Below are positions 7,195 through 48,876 of a stretch of DNA of 64,000 bases, in pieces (within the stretch, counting starts at the first letter, position 1; the number at the start of each line of letters is the position of its first letter). This DNA is from Nitrosomonas nitrosa (GTDB lineage Bacteria > Pseudomonadota > Gammaproteobacteria > Burkholderiales > Nitrosomonadaceae). The notes under the pieces are model-generated. The model was not told the DNA's origin, searched no databases, and was given only the letters and a program-made list of their open reading frames with translations. The position numbers and the translations under genes are program-made. The stretch spans positions 1 through 64,000 of the forward strand of contig NZ_QAOO01000014.1 of NCBI RefSeq assembly GCF_003051105.1, in the 5' to 3' direction.

Positions 7195-8253
7195 TTAAGC
7201 GATCAGGATAGAAGGCGCGTTAGAAGCTGTGGATTGAATGTGACCAATTGGCCAGACTGTTTCTCCAAGTGCGCGCAAGAGGGTTATCGCCTCATCGGCG
7301 TGTTCGGGGGCAACTACGAGTACCATTCCTACACCACAGTTAAAAACCCGGAGCATCTCTTCATCGGTGACATTACCGTGCTGCTGCAACCAACGGAATA
7401 AAGGTGGGGTTTCCCACGCATCTTTTTGGATATAAGCCATCGTTGTTGCAGGAAGAATCCGTGGGATGTTTTCCAGCAATCCCCCACCCGTAATATGAGC
7501 CATGCCTTTCACAGGCAATTGCTTTATTAACTCCAGCAAAGGCTTTACATAAATACGTGTCGGAGCCATGATGGCTTCGATCAGACTGCTACCGCCAAGC
7601 GGAGTGTTTAATTCGTTAGGGTATTTTTCGATAATTTTACGGATTAAAGAATAACCATTGGAGTGTGCGCCATTGGAAGCGATGCCAAGAACGATGTCAT
7701 TTTCCGAAATGGTAGAGCCATTAATGATACTGTCTTTTTCAACGATCCCTACTGCGAAGCCAGCCAAGTCGTATTCACCATCTGGGTACATACTGGGCAT
7801 TTCTGCAGTTTCTCCACCAATCAAGGCACATCCTGCCAACTCGCACCCTGCTGCGATACCCTGCACAACACGGGTGGCGATATCCACTTCCAGTTTTCCA
7901 CAGGCGAAGTAATCGAGGAAGAACAGCGGTTCCGCACCTTGAACAAGAATATCATTGACACTCATGGCAACCAGATCGATACCGATATGATCATGCCGAT
8001 CGAACTGGAATGCTAGCTTTAATTTTGTGCCCACGCCATCGGTTCCTGATACCAGCACGGGCTGACGATAACCCCCGGGAATTTCGAAAAGCGCACCGAA
8101 CCCTCCGATTCCAGCAAGTATTTCCGGACGCCAAGTCCGTTGAGCAAATGGTTTTATTTTCTCAATCAGTAGATTACCTGCATCAATATTGACACCGGCA
8201 TCGTGGTAGGAAAGTTGTTCAGCGTTAGAAGGATGCGATTTAGGCGAAGTCAA
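7195..8253 (-). CDS. purM: Phosphoribosylformylglycinamidine cyclo-ligase (AIR synthetase)
   Basis: PurM closes FGAM to AIR with ATP. The 352 residues match the usual length: '[14 protein letters not shown]' at the N-terminus, '[10 protein letters not shown]', the '[15 protein letters not shown]' motif, '[23 protein letters not shown]', '[24 protein letters not shown]' and '[13 protein letters not shown]'. The frame opens with TTG at 8253; no in-frame ATG lies before the conserved N-terminal motif, so TTG is accepted although its ribosome site is weak. The start is 59 bp from the divergent permease gene, so the gap must hold both promoters. Confidence 0.95.
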
Positions 8254-8312
8254 GTTGAGTTCTCGCTAAGTTACAGTTAGAGTGCCACTTTTATTGTGTA
8301 ATTTTACCGCAA

Positions 8313-9383
8313 ATGGCTTCTAAATACTCTCACTCTCGCGATCGGCAATATCTTTGGTGGTTTGTCTTAATCGGTTTATTCGGTGTGTTGATTTATTTAT
8401 TGAGCCCAATATTGACACCTTTTATGCTGGCAGCAGTGATCGCATATATTTGTAACCCGCTTGTTTCATGGTTATCCGCTAAAAAAATATCCAGGACACT
8501 GGGGGCAATAGTCGTCATGCTTTTGTTAGTCGGCGCTTTTGCTACTTTGATTCTAATCATGATGCCCTTGTTCGAGAGAGAGTTTACACGTTTTGTTACC
8601 AGGATGCCCGACTACCTAGAAATTGCCCGTGATCATTGGATCCCTTGGTTAAATGCGAGGTTGGGGATCGATTTGCAGCTGGATGTGACAATGTTAAGGC
8701 AAGCATTGACAGAGCATTGGAGAAGTGCCGGCGGTATAGCTGCCAAGATGTTACCTTCGCTAACGAGTGGGGGTATTGCGATATTGGATTTTTTAATGAA
8801 TTTACTGCTGGTGCCAGTTGTTCTTTTTTATTTGTTACGTGATTGGAACACCTTGATTCTACATCTCTATCAATGGATCCCTCCTTTTTGGCATGCTCAG
8901 GTTTATCCTTTGATGAAAGAAACCGATCGCGTGCTGGCCGAATTTTTGCGAGGACAAGTCGCAGTCATTATTTTGATGAGTATTTTTTTTGTGACCGGAT
9001 TGTGGCTCGTAGATTTGGAATTTGCGCTACCGATTGGACTATTGGCAGGTATCTTGGTGTTTGTGCCTTATTTAGGCGCAATTGTTGGTTTGGCGCTTGC
9101 AACGTTTGCAGCCGTGATGCAATTCCAGGAATGGACGGATGTAATTGCCGTCTGGGCAGTATTTGGTGCCGGACAATTACTTGAAAGCATGCTGATAACG
9201 CCCTGGTTGGTGGGAGACCGCATAGGGTTGCATCCGGTTATGGTCATTTTTGCATTGCTCGCTTTTGGTCAATTGTTTGGGTTTATCGGTGTTTTGATTG
9301 CACTTCCAGTAAGTGCCATCCTGCTGGTGTGGCTCAGGCATTTACATAGGCAATATCTGGGTAAGATGCAGTCAAGCGACTGA
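8313..9383 (+). CDS. AI-2E/PerM family transporter
   Basis: A 356-residue polytopic membrane protein: two hydrophobic helices at the start ('LWWFVLIGLFGVLIYLL', 'MLAAVIAYICNPLV'), a long amphipathic cytoplasmic stretch (about 95-150), then further hydrophobic segments including 'FVPYLGAIVGLALATFAA' and the C-terminal 'HPVMVIFALLAFGQLFGFIGVLIALPVSA' block typical of the PerM/YdgG (AI-2E transporter) superfamily. Substrates of most members are unknown; some export autoinducer-2 or exchange Na+/H+. It is divergent from purM. I recall hda directly after it in relatives; here 9.2 kb intervene. Confidence 0.85.
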   Translation: MASKYSHSRDRQYLWWFVLIGLFGVLIYLLSPILTPFMLAAVIAYICNPLVSWLSAKKISRTLGAIVVMLLLVGAFATLILIMMPLFEREFTRFVTRMPDYLEIARDHWIPWLNARLGIDLQLDVTMLRQALTEHWRSAGGIAAKMLPSLTSGGIAILDFLMNLLLVPVVLFYLLRDWNTLILHLYQWIPPFWHAQVYPLMKETDRVLAEFLRGQVAVIILMSIFFVTGLWLVDLEFALPIGLLAGILVFVPYLGAIVGLALATFAAVMQFQEWTDVIAVWAVFGAGQLLESMLITPWLVGDRIGLHPVMVIFALLAFGQLFGFIGVLIALPVSAILLVWLRHLHRQYLGKMQSSD

Positions 9384-9801
9384 AGTGCGAAGATATCCGT
9401 TTATTTGTGTGGATCGTGCATTCTGTATTTTTTTGATGATAAGTATTCATCATGCACCCTTGATATTCAGCTAAACTCACATTTCAGTGTATCTAAAATT
9501 TTTTCTAAAGCCTCTTGATTTTTAGACGACAATTTACGTGCAAAATCAATTAATCAAAAGGAATTTTGAAGAGTTCGACTGGTATTATTTCTGGTAAATT
9601 CTGAAAACTTTTTCACACATGGAGCGTGATTCGAGCTAATTTTGTTTAAGGGTCAATATTGTTTTGAGGGTAGCTAAATTCAGGAAAAATTGAATAGATT
9701 TATTACAATCTCAATAATATAGTATAGCTAATTGAGCGTATCGAAACTGACTGAAACGAGTCATAAATCCGCCAATTAGAACCTCTCGATCAGAAAATAA
9801 A
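9384..9801. other. A+T-rich intergenic region with a small hairpin and a dead ORF tail
   Basis: This 418-bp gap follows the permease gene. It holds the hairpin TGATGA-taagtat-TCATCA around 9433-9451, flanked by GTGCAT and ATGCAC arms, which may be a weak terminator. On the minus strand 9467-9553 reads 28 helical-looking codons ending in TGA but closed by a stop just upstream, like the tail of a lost gene. No promoter good enough to call was seen before the orphan gene at 9802. Confidence 0.4.
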
Positions 9802-45805: not shown

Positions 45806-46136
45806 GTTATTTTTTCGATCCGATATATTGTCTTGCGAATTGAGCGGTTAGACGAAATGTCGAGATTTTTTACAGGTGCACTATTGGGTGCTTTTGTAAA
45901 CGCTGCTGGCGATTTTGTAACGCAATGATATTACTTGGTTAATTGGATTTAAGTGAATAAATGGCATGGTTATTGCATATAGTTAAGATAGGAGCTGCAT
46001 CTCACATGCAAAAGTACGCACGAATGTAAGTACACAAGCTATAGATGATATATTGCGATCAATATGAAAAGCATCATTGATTATGAGCGGAAATACGAGG
46101 ACAATGATTTCCTGTTCATCTTGAGGAGTTAAAGAG
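45806..46136. other. Leader region of the HPr-rel-A cassette
   Basis: This 331-bp gap after czcA contains a sigma-54 promoter (45962-45977), an imperfect two-part stem around 45870-45898 (TTACA/TGTAA outside GCAC/GTGC) that may end the czc message, and a 22-codon plus-strand reading frame at 46064-46132 whose stop lies 4 bp before the next ATG. The final bases carry a strong ribosome site (TGAGGAG) for the gene at 46137. Confidence 0.5.
45962..45977 (+). promoter_or_regulatory. Sigma-54 (RpoN) promoter
   Basis: TGGCAT-GGTTA-TTGCA matches the -24/-12 consensus (TGGCAC-N5-TTGCA) at all but one position, with the required GG and GC exactly 10 bp apart. It would start transcription about 12 bp downstream, some 145 bases before the first gene of the cassette. 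Sigma-54 control is established for exosortase/PEP-CTERM regulons (PrsK/PrsR), which makes the match credible here. Confidence 0.7.
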
Positions 46137-46556
46137 ATGTCAGAAGATAAAGTAAAGAAACAAACAGATTTAGGAAGGGATTCTCCAGATAATACGCTGC
46201 AACAAAGCCGAAGGCGCTTGCTTAAAAACTCTGTTGCAATCCCGGTGATTATGACGCTGAGCAGTGGCGCGGCACATGCCGTGACCAGTAATTTGGTAAG
46301 CCCAAGTGAAACTGATATTTTTATGGTTGATGAGCAAGTAGCTTGTTTTGATATTGAAGAGGCAGTAGTTATAGATGATTTACATACAAAATATGATCTC
46401 GGTGAATCAAATTCAATAACTTATACTCTAGAAGAAGATGTGATGGCCTGTTCCAATAGGCAAGATATGTATGGGCCAGGAATAGTCATCTCTTCGGCTG
46501 CCTATTCATCGCTCAGTGGAAGGCCGAATGTGCAAATAATGCAAAGAATGTTGTGA
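46137..46556 (+). CDS. Small protein with Tat-like signal, putative HPr-rel-A substrate
   Basis: A 139-residue protein I cannot assign to a named family. An acidic/polar leader (1-23) precedes a twin-arginine motif 'SRRRLLK' (24-30), a hydrophobic stretch 'VAIPVIMTLSSGAA' and an 'AHA' cleavage site (46-48). The mature part is about 90 residues, acidic, with two cysteines ('QVACFDIEE', 'DVMACSNRQ'). It has a strong ribosome site, stands first behind a sigma-54 promoter and is followed by the PqqD-like, kinase and nucleotidyltransferase genes. By analogy with RiPP-like clusters it could be what the cassette modifies; that is inference. Tat export of a folded protein is the best reading of the signal. 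Confidence 0.6.
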   Translation: MSEDKVKKQTDLGRDSPDNTLQQSRRRLLKNSVAIPVIMTLSSGAAHAVTSNLVSPSETDIFMVDEQVACFDIEEAVVIDDLHTKYDLGESNSITYTLEEDVMACSNRQDMYGPGIVISSAAYSSLSGRPNVQIMQRML

Positions 46557-46573
46557 GATAGCTAATTTTTGTA

Positions 46574-46879
46574 ATGTTCTGGAGATCGACCGATTTTACT
46601 TCTCTTCTTATCGAAGAGTGGGAGGAAGAGTTTATCGTTTTCCAGCCAACTTCAGGGAAAACGCATTTTCTTAATAAATTGGGAATGCAGCTTCTCTTGG
46701 AGCTAGATAAATATCATCAATCGGCCTATTCCGAAGATCAAATTTGCCAGTGTCTCTTGGATCGATTCCAGCTGCAGTCAGCTCCACATTTCTTGGAACA
46801 AGTTAAGAAAACGCTGCGCCGTTTTGAAGAACTGGGTTTAGTTGAACAAGTTAAGCGAGATCCTGTGAGTGCGCGTTGA
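46574..46879 (+). CDS. HPr-rel-A system PqqD-family peptide chaperone
   Basis: A 101-residue PqqD-like winged-helix protein: 'EEWEEEFIVFQPTSGKTHFLNKLGMQLLLELDKY' followed by 'CLLDRFQLQSAPHFLEQVKKTLRRFEELGLVEQV', the usual PqqD pattern of a beta hairpin and three helices. PqqD domains bind the leader of a substrate peptide and present it to a modifying enzyme. It starts 17 bp after the Tat-signal protein and overlaps the kinase gene by 11 bases. The adjoining kinase and nucleotidyltransferase identify it as part of the HPr-rel-A cassette rather than PQQ synthesis. Confidence 0.85.
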   Translation: MFWRSTDFTSLLIEEWEEEFIVFQPTSGKTHFLNKLGMQLLLELDKYHQSAYSEDQICQCLLDRFQLQSAPHFLEQVKKTLRRFEELGLVEQVKRDPVSAR

Positions 46880-47777
46880 GCAAATACCCGCTGCAAGTTT
46901 TTTTTCATTGCTTTCCGAAGAGGGGCTTAGAATAAGGCTAGGGCCGTTCAATGTGCGAATAAGCACAAATCTTCGTCATTTAGCCGAGCAGCTTCACTTT
47001 CTCTATGCACATTATGAATTGGTTGAAGATGAAATTACAGAATTTCATGTAAAAATTGTATCGAAACGTTCTATCCCGCGCCCTTTTTCTGCATCTGTTC
47101 ACTTTTTGGTCGACGACCAAGAACCTTTTCCTCCCGCTCCCGTTAACCAAGCATTAGCCATATTGGAATGGGGAATCAATCTGGCCATTGCTCTCCGAAC
47201 TAATCATTTGCTGCTATTTCATTCTGCCGCAGTGGAGAGGAATGGGAACGTCTTGTTGCTGCCAGCTTGGCCGGGAAGTGGCAAGACAACTTTATGCACG
47301 GTACTTGCTCATCGTGGATTTCGATTATTTTCAGATGAATTTGGGCTCATGGATACTGAATGCGATGAGCTTCTTCCCGTTCCCCGACTCATGTCGCTCA
47401 AAAATCAGTCTATCGATGTCATCAAGCGCTATTTACCTGAAGCGTCAATGGGCCAAGCAATACCGCATACTCAGAAAGGGACGGTTGCGCATGTTCGGCC
47501 ACCGCAAGAGAGTATCGAGCAGTCTGCAAAAACTGCAAAAGCGAGATGGATTATTTTCCCAAAATGGGTTGCCGATTCGCCATTGAGACTTGAGCGTTTA
47601 CCCCAGTCTGAGGCTTTCCTGTTACTGGCGAGTAACTCATTTAATTATGAAATACTCGGTGAGGCAGCTTATAAAGCCGTTACTCGTCTAGTGAAAACGT
47701 GTCATTGTTATAAACTTGTCTATTCCGATTTTGATCGTGTTCTAACTGCGTTAAACGAATTGACCTACGGTGGGTAA
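46869..47777 (+). CDS. HprK-related kinase A
   Basis: A 302-residue P-loop protein related to the catalytic half of HPr kinase/phosphorylase. Walker A is 'PAWPGSGKTT' (132-141), preceded by 'NHLLLFHSAAVERNGNVLLL', and followed by 'HRGFRLFSDEFGLMD', the segment equivalent to the acidic catalytic region. The N-terminal half (1-100) has no HPr-kinase-like regulatory domain. It starts at GTG 46869 inside the PqqD gene (11-base overlap) and overlaps the next gene by 8 bases, so the three are translated together. Related kinases phosphorylate lasso peptides; here the target is unknown. Confidence 0.85.
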   Translation: MRVEQIPAASFFSLLSEEGLRIRLGPFNVRISTNLRHLAEQLHFLYAHYELVEDEITEFHVKIVSKRSIPRPFSASVHFLVDDQEPFPPAPVNQALAILEWGINLAIALRTNHLLLFHSAAVERNGNVLLLPAWPGSGKTTLCTVLAHRGFRLFSDEFGLMDTECDELLPVPRLMSLKNQSIDVIKRYLPEASMGQAIPHTQKGTVAHVRPPQESIEQSAKTAKARWIIFPKWVADSPLRLERLPQSEAFLLLASNSFNYEILGEAAYKAVTRLVKTCHCYKLVYSDFDRVLTALNELTYGG

Positions 47778-48876
47778 CTTCTCCAATCATCAAAAATTAC
47801 TTCGTAATGCCTTGATCGATCCTGTCTCTGTACTCGATTACAGCATATCGGAATGGGAGTTGCTGTTACGTCTGGTCAGAAGGGTAAAACTCTTGGGACA
47901 TTTAGCAATTGAGCTTGAGAGAAGGGGATTGTCGAATAAAATTCCTGTACGTGCAGCCAATCAACTGCGCTCTGGACTGATCAGAGCAAAAAAATTCCAG
48001 CAATTGGCGCGCTGGGAACTCGATAGAATTACTTGGGCATTGAAAGGTATGAATATCCCCGTCGTGGTGTTAAAAGGGGGGGCATATATGTTGGCAAGGC
48101 TTCCTTCAGCAGAAGGTCGGTTTTTCATTGATCTGGATATCATGGTCCCCCAAGAACAGTTGGATCAGGTAGAAGCATGTTTGCTGAAGCGAGGGTGGAG
48201 ACATCGCGAGATTTCAACCTACGATGAACACTATTATCGGGCATGGAGTCAGGAGATTCCTGCGCTCATACATAGGGAACGGGAAACGGAGGTGGATATA
48301 CACCATACCATCGCACCTGTGACGAGCCGGATTAGATTAGATGCGCGTTTATTATTCGATGATGCGATCACCGTTGGCAGCCCCGAATATCGGATACTCT
48401 GTCCTGTCGATATGGTGTTGCACTGCTCGGTCAATCTATTCCAGAACAACGAGCTGGCTGATGATTTGCGTGATTTGCTTGATCTGCACTCGATGCTGTG
48501 TGTGTTTCCTCATGAGGACACCCAATTTTGGGAAAAAATGATTAGCCGCGCTAACCAGCTACGTTTGGGGAGGCCGCTTTTTTATGGTATATGGTTTACG
48601 CGCATGATTTTCCAAACACCCGTACCAGAAAAAATAGAAAATACGCTGAATCAAAAGCCAGGGCTGTTTTCGCGATGGATAATGAACGCACTGGTTCCTT
48701 CTGCTTTATTGCCGTTGCACCCGGATTACCCAGCGAGATTTGCACAATTTGCGCGCTTTCTTTTGTATCTACGAAGCCATTGGATTAGGATGCCATTTCA
48801 TTTGCTGATATCGCACCTTGCTTATAAATGCTATTTGAGGTTGCGCCCACCCAGTAAGCCGATGATCAAAAAGTGA
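47770..48876 (+). CDS. HPr-rel-A nucleotidyltransferase-family protein
   Basis: A 368-residue protein of the uncharacterised nucleotidyltransferase family often seen with PqqD-like proteins. After a helical N-terminus (1-90) comes 'IPVVVLKGGAYMLARLPSAEGRFFIDLDIMV' with a GG loop (103-104) and a metal-binding DLD (121-123), then 'EVDIHHTIAP' with a third acidic site and a helical C-terminal domain. The three acidic residues suggest real catalysis, perhaps AMP or UMP transfer to a protein or small molecule. It starts at GTG 47770, overlapping the kinase by 8 bases, and ends the cassette. Confidence 0.82.
   Translation: MGNFSNHQKLLRNALIDPVSVLDYSISEWELLLRLVRRVKLLGHLAIELERRGLSNKIPVRAANQLRSGLIRAKKFQQLARWELDRITWALKGMNIPVVVLKGGAYMLARLPSAEGRFFIDLDIMVPQEQLDQVEACLLKRGWRHREISTYDEHYYRAWSQEIPALIHRERETEVDIHHTIAPVTSRIRLDARLLFDDAITVGSPEYRILCPVDMVLHCSVNLFQNNELADDLRDLLDLHSMLCVFPHEDTQFWEKMISRANQLRLGRPLFYGIWFTRMIFQTPVPEKIENTLNQKPGLFSRWIMNALVPSALLPLHPDYPARFAQFARFLLYLRSHWIRMPFHLLISHLAYKCYLRLRPPSKPMIKK

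Follow-up and report, generated by a model that had tools for sequence, protein, structure and literature searches.

Which molecule do the enzymes of the HPr-rel-A cassette act on, and is it encoded by the small gene at the head of the cassette? We addressed this question in Nitrosomonas nitrosa, using the first 64,000 nucleotides of contig NZ_QAOO01000014.1 (hereafter the window) from a genome of 3.42 Mb in 85 contigs. Four genes follow one another there on the plus strand. They encode P1, a 139-residue protein with an ATG start (46137..46556); a PqqD-like protein of 101 residues (46574..46879); HprK-related kinase A, of 302 residues and with a GTG start (46869..47777); and an NTP_transf_5 nucleotidyltransferase-like protein of 368 residues, also with a GTG start (47770..48876). 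An earlier reading of the letters alone (the sequence-only reading) had described tight spacing with overlaps of 11 bases between the second and third genes and of 8 bases between the third and fourth, and the open frames bear this out. We propose that P1 is the substrate, and that the cassette is probably the Pseudomonadota counterpart, for an exported protein, of the linear polyphosphorylated peptide (LPP) pathway of Bacillota, with Ser51 of P1 as the likeliest site of modification.

The identities that the sequence-only reading had given to the four products, a protein with a twin-arginine translocation (Tat) signal, a PqqD-like protein, an HprK relative and a three-acid nucleotidyltransferase, agree with family scores and conserved residues. 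In NCBIfam, the PqqD-like protein (TIGR04353, PqqD_rel_X; 60.2 bits against a cut-off of 35) and the kinase (TIGR04352, HprK_rel_A; 347 bits against 200) are full members of the HPr-rel-A system, and the last product matches PF14907 of Pfam (170.4 bits against 31.2). The general PqqD model PF05402 scores the second protein at 21.6 bits, slightly below its cut-off of 23.4. Residues H118, K139, D156 and E157 of the kinase are invariant across 99 rows, as are K102 and the acids D121, D123 and D176 of the nucleotidyltransferase across 64 rows. The structural model of the kinase is weak (mean predicted local distance difference test score [pLDDT], 60); its 50 listed fold matches are all PEPCK or HPr kinase, but they merely agree with the family call, as the best E value is 0.039. 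Against PDB sequences, the kinase profile found PEPCK 1ii2 at E 0.23, the PqqD profile gave six matches at E 0.1 to 0.9, including the lasso RRE TbiB1, and NTP_transf_5 had no match. P1, unlike its kinase and PqqD neighbors, has no model in either family database: it gave zero Pfam matches and an NCBIfam match at chance level only. The idea that P1 is itself a PEP-CTERM-anchored protein was rejected, as neither database gave a PEP-CTERM match. No description of the HPr-rel-A cassette was found among the matches listed in the open-licence literature, which were mostly abstracts.

Does P1 belong to the cassette? We counted a full kinase wherever TIGR04352 scored above its curated cut-off. Within the Nitrosomonadaceae, 32 of 125 genomes have one; in the wider sets, the figures are 41 of 369 genomes for the class and 51 of 299 for the phylum. 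A P1 profile built from 28 sequences (threshold, E 0.01) matched 30 of the 125 Nitrosomonadaceae genomes. All 30 were among the 32 with a full kinase, and the match adjoined the kinase in each; none of the other 93 genomes was matched, G062, G108 and G116 with their weak or partial kinase matches being counted in that group (Fisher p 7e-27, not corrected for kinship). The co-occurrence on which the sequence-only reading had staked its first gene is thus present, and it strongly supports P1 as a part of the cassette. The two genomes with a full kinase and no P1, G002 and G003, both come from the same genus. In G003 the contig starts directly upstream of the kinase; in G002 the kinase and NTP_transf_5 genes are present, with neither a head nor PqqD detected upstream, and they may be a remnant or serve another use.

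Proteins with a twin-arginine (RR) signal recur at the head of the cassette well beyond the family. We read 30 kinase loci from the 32 family genomes above cut-off, 40 from the class and 27 from the phylum (from 47 genomes not already read), making 96 distinct loci; L129, a duplicate of L018, was left out of head counts and kept in the kinase tree. A head with an RR signal is present in 28 of 30 family, 39 of 40 class and 23 of 27 phylum loci, or 89 of the 96 distinct loci overall. A profile of the signal, built from family and class sequences and none from the phylum, recovers 38 of 40 class heads and those of 22 of 27 phylum loci. At the threshold used, no further frame matched in any of the 67 regions (40 from the class, 27 from the phylum). 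Two of the 22 phylum heads failed our filter, owing to an overlong kinase frame (L199) or a head on the other strand (L208); the heads of L214 and L121 were identified by eye and by a separate reading, respectively, and that of L107, missed by the signal profile, through its type a motif only. Seven loci lacked a head (L002, L003, L128, L193, L196, L209 and L210), two of which, L003 and L128, are cut short with less than 600 bases upstream. Scans of ten heads in Pfam and NCBIfam gave nothing above cut-off; the signal region of an AmiA model was matched by one head, at E 2e-4. In six loci (L121, L123, L132, L134, L135 and L136), NTP_transf_5 is on the opposite strand and upstream of the head rather than after the kinase. 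L212 has a 706-residue open frame (7468-9588) matched by both the kinase and the NTP_transf_5 profiles, probably a fusion of the two.

Most heads fall into two types. Type b (n = 55), which includes P1 and its relatives, is mostly short and has a near-C-terminal [AC]-x-x-S-[LIF] motif. Type a, made up of 30 class heads and that of L191, is about 200 residues long, with an invariant Cys, a Ser-rich CxxSGxxSGN segment and a GYW motif; the phylum heads L189, L192 and L194 were assigned to neither type. The type follows the kinase: over the 87 labelled rows of a 102-row kinase tree, computed by a quick method without bootstrap and with labels set from the head sequences, a single change accounts for head type, and the type a side has a support of 99 in the Shimodaira-Hasegawa-like approximate likelihood ratio test. 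A type a profile scored above 120 bits in 30 class genomes, each time at a cassette. The mature part of type a, lacking the signal, also scored 50 to 92 bits inside larger frames of six genomes (G420, G139, G339, G204, G223 and G208), and this domain therefore has another life without a signal. In five type a loci (L107, L114, L126, L127 and L137), the cassette lies near a gene for what we take, from its sequence, to be a trypsin-like secreted protein.

The N-terminal region of P1 has the features of an SRRxFLK-type Tat signal. It runs from S24 to A48 (46206..46280, plus strand), with S24-RRRLLK-K30, a hydrophobic stretch and an AxA site at A46-H47-A48, and R25, R26, L28, K30, P36, A46 and A48 are invariant in 28 relatives. 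The Tat-type signal that the sequence-only reading had predicted on the first protein recurs in all the heads gathered: 89 of 89 have RR followed by a hydrophobic stretch and mostly by AxA; position +3 is L or F in 85 of them, and position +5 is K in 69. The RR is partly due to selection, as some heads were gathered with an R[RK] pattern; the L/F and K were not selected. Two positions of the window P1 differ from most relatives: H47, within the AxA site, is Leu in 25 of 28, and V49, after it (46281-46283), is Arg in 26 of 28.

Beyond the signal, the S51-N52 pair (46287..46292, plus strand) is invariant in the 28 relatives. With A48 at the cleavage position, S51 is the third residue past the AxA site, and it lies 15 residues past P36 (46242-46244, plus strand). 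A Ser at 15 residues from this Pro is present in 27 of 28 family heads, the remaining one (L008) having two extra residues and a Ser at +17, in five of eight type b heads of the class, the other three having it at +14, and in 19 of 23 phylum heads (exceptions, L189, L191, L192 and L194).

This arrangement is reminiscent of the LPP pathway. Excerpts of the published account (PMC13381572, Nat Commun 2026) describe genes named lppA, B, K, N, S and D, and a machinery composed of an RRE (the recognition element of ribosomally synthesized and post-translationally modified peptides, or RiPPs) called LppB, an HprK-like kinase LppK, an NTP transferase LppN, a signal-peptidase-like LppS and an MsbA-like transporter. 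According to these excerpts, LppB holds residues Y-16 and P-13 of the leader, LppK modifies the core AQSN by placing several phosphates on its S3, a modification that S3A abolishes, and LppS removes the leader by cleaving after T-1, with assistance from the RRE. The HPr-rel-A cassette likewise brings together a discrete RRE-like protein, an HprK-like kinase and an NTP transferase. The proline-to-serine distance is the same, 15 residues, in LppA (P-13/S3/N4) and in P1 (P36/S51/N52), and LPP loci, as far as the same excerpts go, have one to three small precursors with a conserved N terminus and a variable C terminus, as do the heads (PMC13381572). The settings are comparable too: surface-polysaccharide loci for LPP, and genomes with exosortase for the cassette.

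Nevertheless, the cassette is not a member of the LPP family, from which it differs in leader motif, peptidase and transporter. The LPP leader motif YxxPxVLxHQxIxFETxxS is not found in P1, which instead carries the RR and AxA of a Tat-type signal and shares with the motif only the Pro, the next hydrophobic residue and the +15 Ser. Neither an LppS-like peptidase nor an MsbA-like transporter is among the four genes, judging from the open frames of the window at this locus. The cassette has larger heads, a sigma-54 promoter and a home in Pseudomonadota; the authors of the LPP account state that LPP is restricted to Bacillota. Their text makes no use of the terms Proteobacteria, Pseudomonadota, Gram-negative, signal peptide, exosortase or Tat (PMC13381572).

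We favor the following sequence of events for P1 as the substrate of the cassette enzymes. The PqqD-like protein, acting as an RRE, would bind the P36 segment within the twin-arginine signal and keep P1 from leaving the cytoplasm. S51 would be phosphorylated by HprK-related kinase A, and NTP_transf_5 would attach a nucleotide or a sugar to the phosphate. Modified P1 would then be freed to the Tat system and cut after A48 by ordinary signal peptidase, and the mature protein would have an extracytoplasmic function, which in cells with an exosortase may lie in the exopolysaccharide matrix. Of the modification pathway put forward by the sequence-only reading, the place of the first gene in the system, its recurring signal, the sigma-54 site and the exosortase association have gained support, and the comparison with LPP sharpens the proposal to one serine.

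Several observations weigh against this proposal. None of 28 type a heads has a Ser at +15 (L104 and L107 lack the anchor), so that one rule does not cover both head types; a single serine rule for every head was rejected for that reason. In the P1 segment VAIPVIM, as in most cassette heads, V33 or its equivalent stands where the RRE motif has its aromatic residue, and we therefore only infer RRE binding of P1. The PqqD profile aligns with the lasso RRE TbiB1 across nearly its full length, at E 0.31 only. Conservation extends to the serine near the C terminus. According to the excerpts of the LPP paper, deletion of lppN caused no change in the host of that study (PMC13381572), which bears on the transferase step. 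L193, L209 and L210 have a kinase with neither a head nor PqqD seen, the silence of the PqqD profile being weak evidence of absence because it also missed the gene in head-bearing L125, L130, L137 and L194; L196 has PqqD and no head nearby. G339, G204, G223 and G208 contain the type a mature domain without a full cassette, and deep relatedness inflates the co-occurrence figures.

Other known systems combine similar parts. Phosphorylated lasso peptides (PadeK, ThcoK, PsmK and PsmN systems) also associate an HprK-like kinase with a nucleotidyltransferase and an RRE. In the available extracts, PadeK of the paeninodin type phosphorylates the C-terminal serine (PMC9266682), and PsmN of pseudomycoidin attaches a hexose to the phosphate of phosphoserine (PMC8498205). 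The kinase residues are His-Lys-Asp-Glu in the cassette and, from the same source, His-Lys-Asp-Asp in lasso kinases (PMC9266682), the open frames of the four window genes include neither a macrolactam cyclase nor a B2 leader peptidase, and the cassette heads, unlike lasso peptides, are proposed to be exported proteins. SynChlorMet cassettes likewise have PqqD-like and HprK-like partners, with weak matches here (ScmD, 16.1 bits for a cut-off of 100; ScmC, 17 bits for a cut-off of 125). Finally, the partial accounts used here of Tat proofreading chaperones of the DmsD and TorD type (PMC3316669, PMC3712460) describe a small cytoplasmic protein that retains a Tat signal until maturation; in the cassette, an RRE-like protein and phosphorylation would replace cofactor insertion.

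A group of small peptides bears on the idea of a leader within a Tat signal. In 11 loci (L177 to L187) of seven genomes, we found 15 small RR peptides of 57 to 149 residues, with variable tails and a near-identical leader, SRRxF(L/I)KK..Y.AP..LTL. All 15 have the published RRE motif YxxPx[ILV] inside the Tat-like signal, as well as G-S at +15/+16 or +16/+17. Seven of the 11 loci also have an HprK-like kinase that is divergent and scores below the TIGR04352 cut-off, and five have a PqqD-like gene; L177 has three RR peptides in a row. Judged from these sequences, the small RR peptides may form a second family of RiPPs with Tat leaders.

The sequence-only reading had placed the cassette under sigma-54 control. 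The predicted -24/-12 promoter, TGGCATG-N4-TTGCA (45962..45977, plus strand; TGGCATGGTTATTGCA), agrees with the consensus at 11 of the 12 positions scored, and 159 bases separate its end from the P1 ATG. Of 28 family loci, which are related and hence not independent, 21 have a site scoring at least 10 of 12 ahead of P1, where dinucleotide shuffles give 0.52 expected. Such sites are also found in 22 of 38 class loci (0.78 expected; the count includes L108, whose RR codon was mis-picked) and 11 of 20 phylum loci (0.67 expected). The genome encodes a PEP_resp_reg protein (768.9 bits, above its cut-off), a regulator that works together with sigma-54. No consistent terminator was found between P1 and the PqqD-like gene by folding of seven loci and a terminator scan of one; an attenuator at this place would fit a substrate produced in excess. 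The cassette is flanked by genes that we take, from their sequences, to encode a large efflux pump and an MgtE-like protein.

The link to exosortase that the sequence-only reading had drawn holds at the level of genomes: of the 41 class genomes that have the cassette, 38 also encode an exosortase (E 1e-10), the exceptions being G176, G181 and G410, as against 78 of the 328 that lack the cassette (p 3e-18, with no correction for kinship). Cassette and exosortase are on one contig in 15 genomes, 29 to 108 kb apart in 12 and 0.8 to 2.8 Mb apart in three (distances tabulated by hand); in N. nitrosa they are on different contigs. PEP-CTERM proteins are found in 30 of 30 P1 genomes and in 72 of the 93 other family genomes, and G002 and G003 have none. 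Such a setting would suit a different arrangement, in which P1 is an exported partner that stays unmodified, for instance as a sensor or as part of the matrix, and the enzymes have another target, such as a peptide from a remote locus, a polysaccharide or a PEP-CTERM protein. The exosortase and PEP-CTERM counts, the 12 close pairs and the kinases kept without a head in three phylum loci and G002 speak for it. However, PEP-CTERM proteins alone do not call for the cassette, since 72 of 93 family genomes without the cassette have them. Moreover, head type follows the kinase tree, heads directly precede the RRE gene, and the profiles A1 and A2 give no second head in the genome of the window. We therefore regard this arrangement as unlikely.

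Alternatively, P1 may be the substrate but be modified on S125 (46509..46511, plus strand), in the near-C-terminal AYSSL motif, as in paeninodin-type lasso peptides. S125 too is invariant in the 28 relatives, and of the 55 type b heads, 51 have the exact pattern [AC]-x-x-S-[LIF] near the C terminus, for 6.6 expected by shuffling. The shortest head, of 74 residues (L121, 600 to 375 bases before the kinase), consists of the signal and a short tail, GSACISCNASLI, alone, and the target of PadeK is a C-terminal serine (extracts of PMC9266682). In several heads, though, the corresponding serine is 13 to 29 residues before the end and hence not terminal, the small RR peptides lack the C-terminal motif yet retain the post-signal serine, and the LPP kinase targets a serine near the leader (excerpts of PMC13381572), all of which makes S125 quite an improbable site. 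The structure prediction of P1 was uninformative (mean pLDDT, 45). That the RR segment is an RRE leader merely resembling a Tat signal, with P1 cleaved in the cytoplasm instead of being exported through Tat, would parallel the RRE-assisted cleavage of the LPP leader by a signal-peptidase-like enzyme in a paper whose text, from the excerpts, lacks the term signal peptide (PMC13381572), but it is very improbable given the RR, L/F, K, hydrophobic and AxA features of the heads and a window cassette whose open frames include no peptidase or transporter gene.

The preferred reading, modification of P1 at S51 ahead of export, offers, for a cassette known by name only, testable proposals on its substrate, on the residue modified and on the sequence of steps. 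If it is true, RRE-guided phosphorylation would reach beyond the peptides of Bacillota to the maturation of exported proteins, Tat signals could act as RiPP leaders, and HprK-related kinases would acquire a role in genomes equipped for exosortase and exopolysaccharide, including those of ammonia oxidisers. A broader view, which the sequences make conceivable and which we advance tentatively, is that the twin-arginine signal doubles as a RiPP leader read by an RRE in the cytoplasm, that a serine past the cleavage site is decorated by the kinase and the transferase before export, and that HPr-rel-A may be a widespread system of phospho-maturation and export control in exosortase-bearing Pseudomonadota, with substrates of about 60 to 200 residues.

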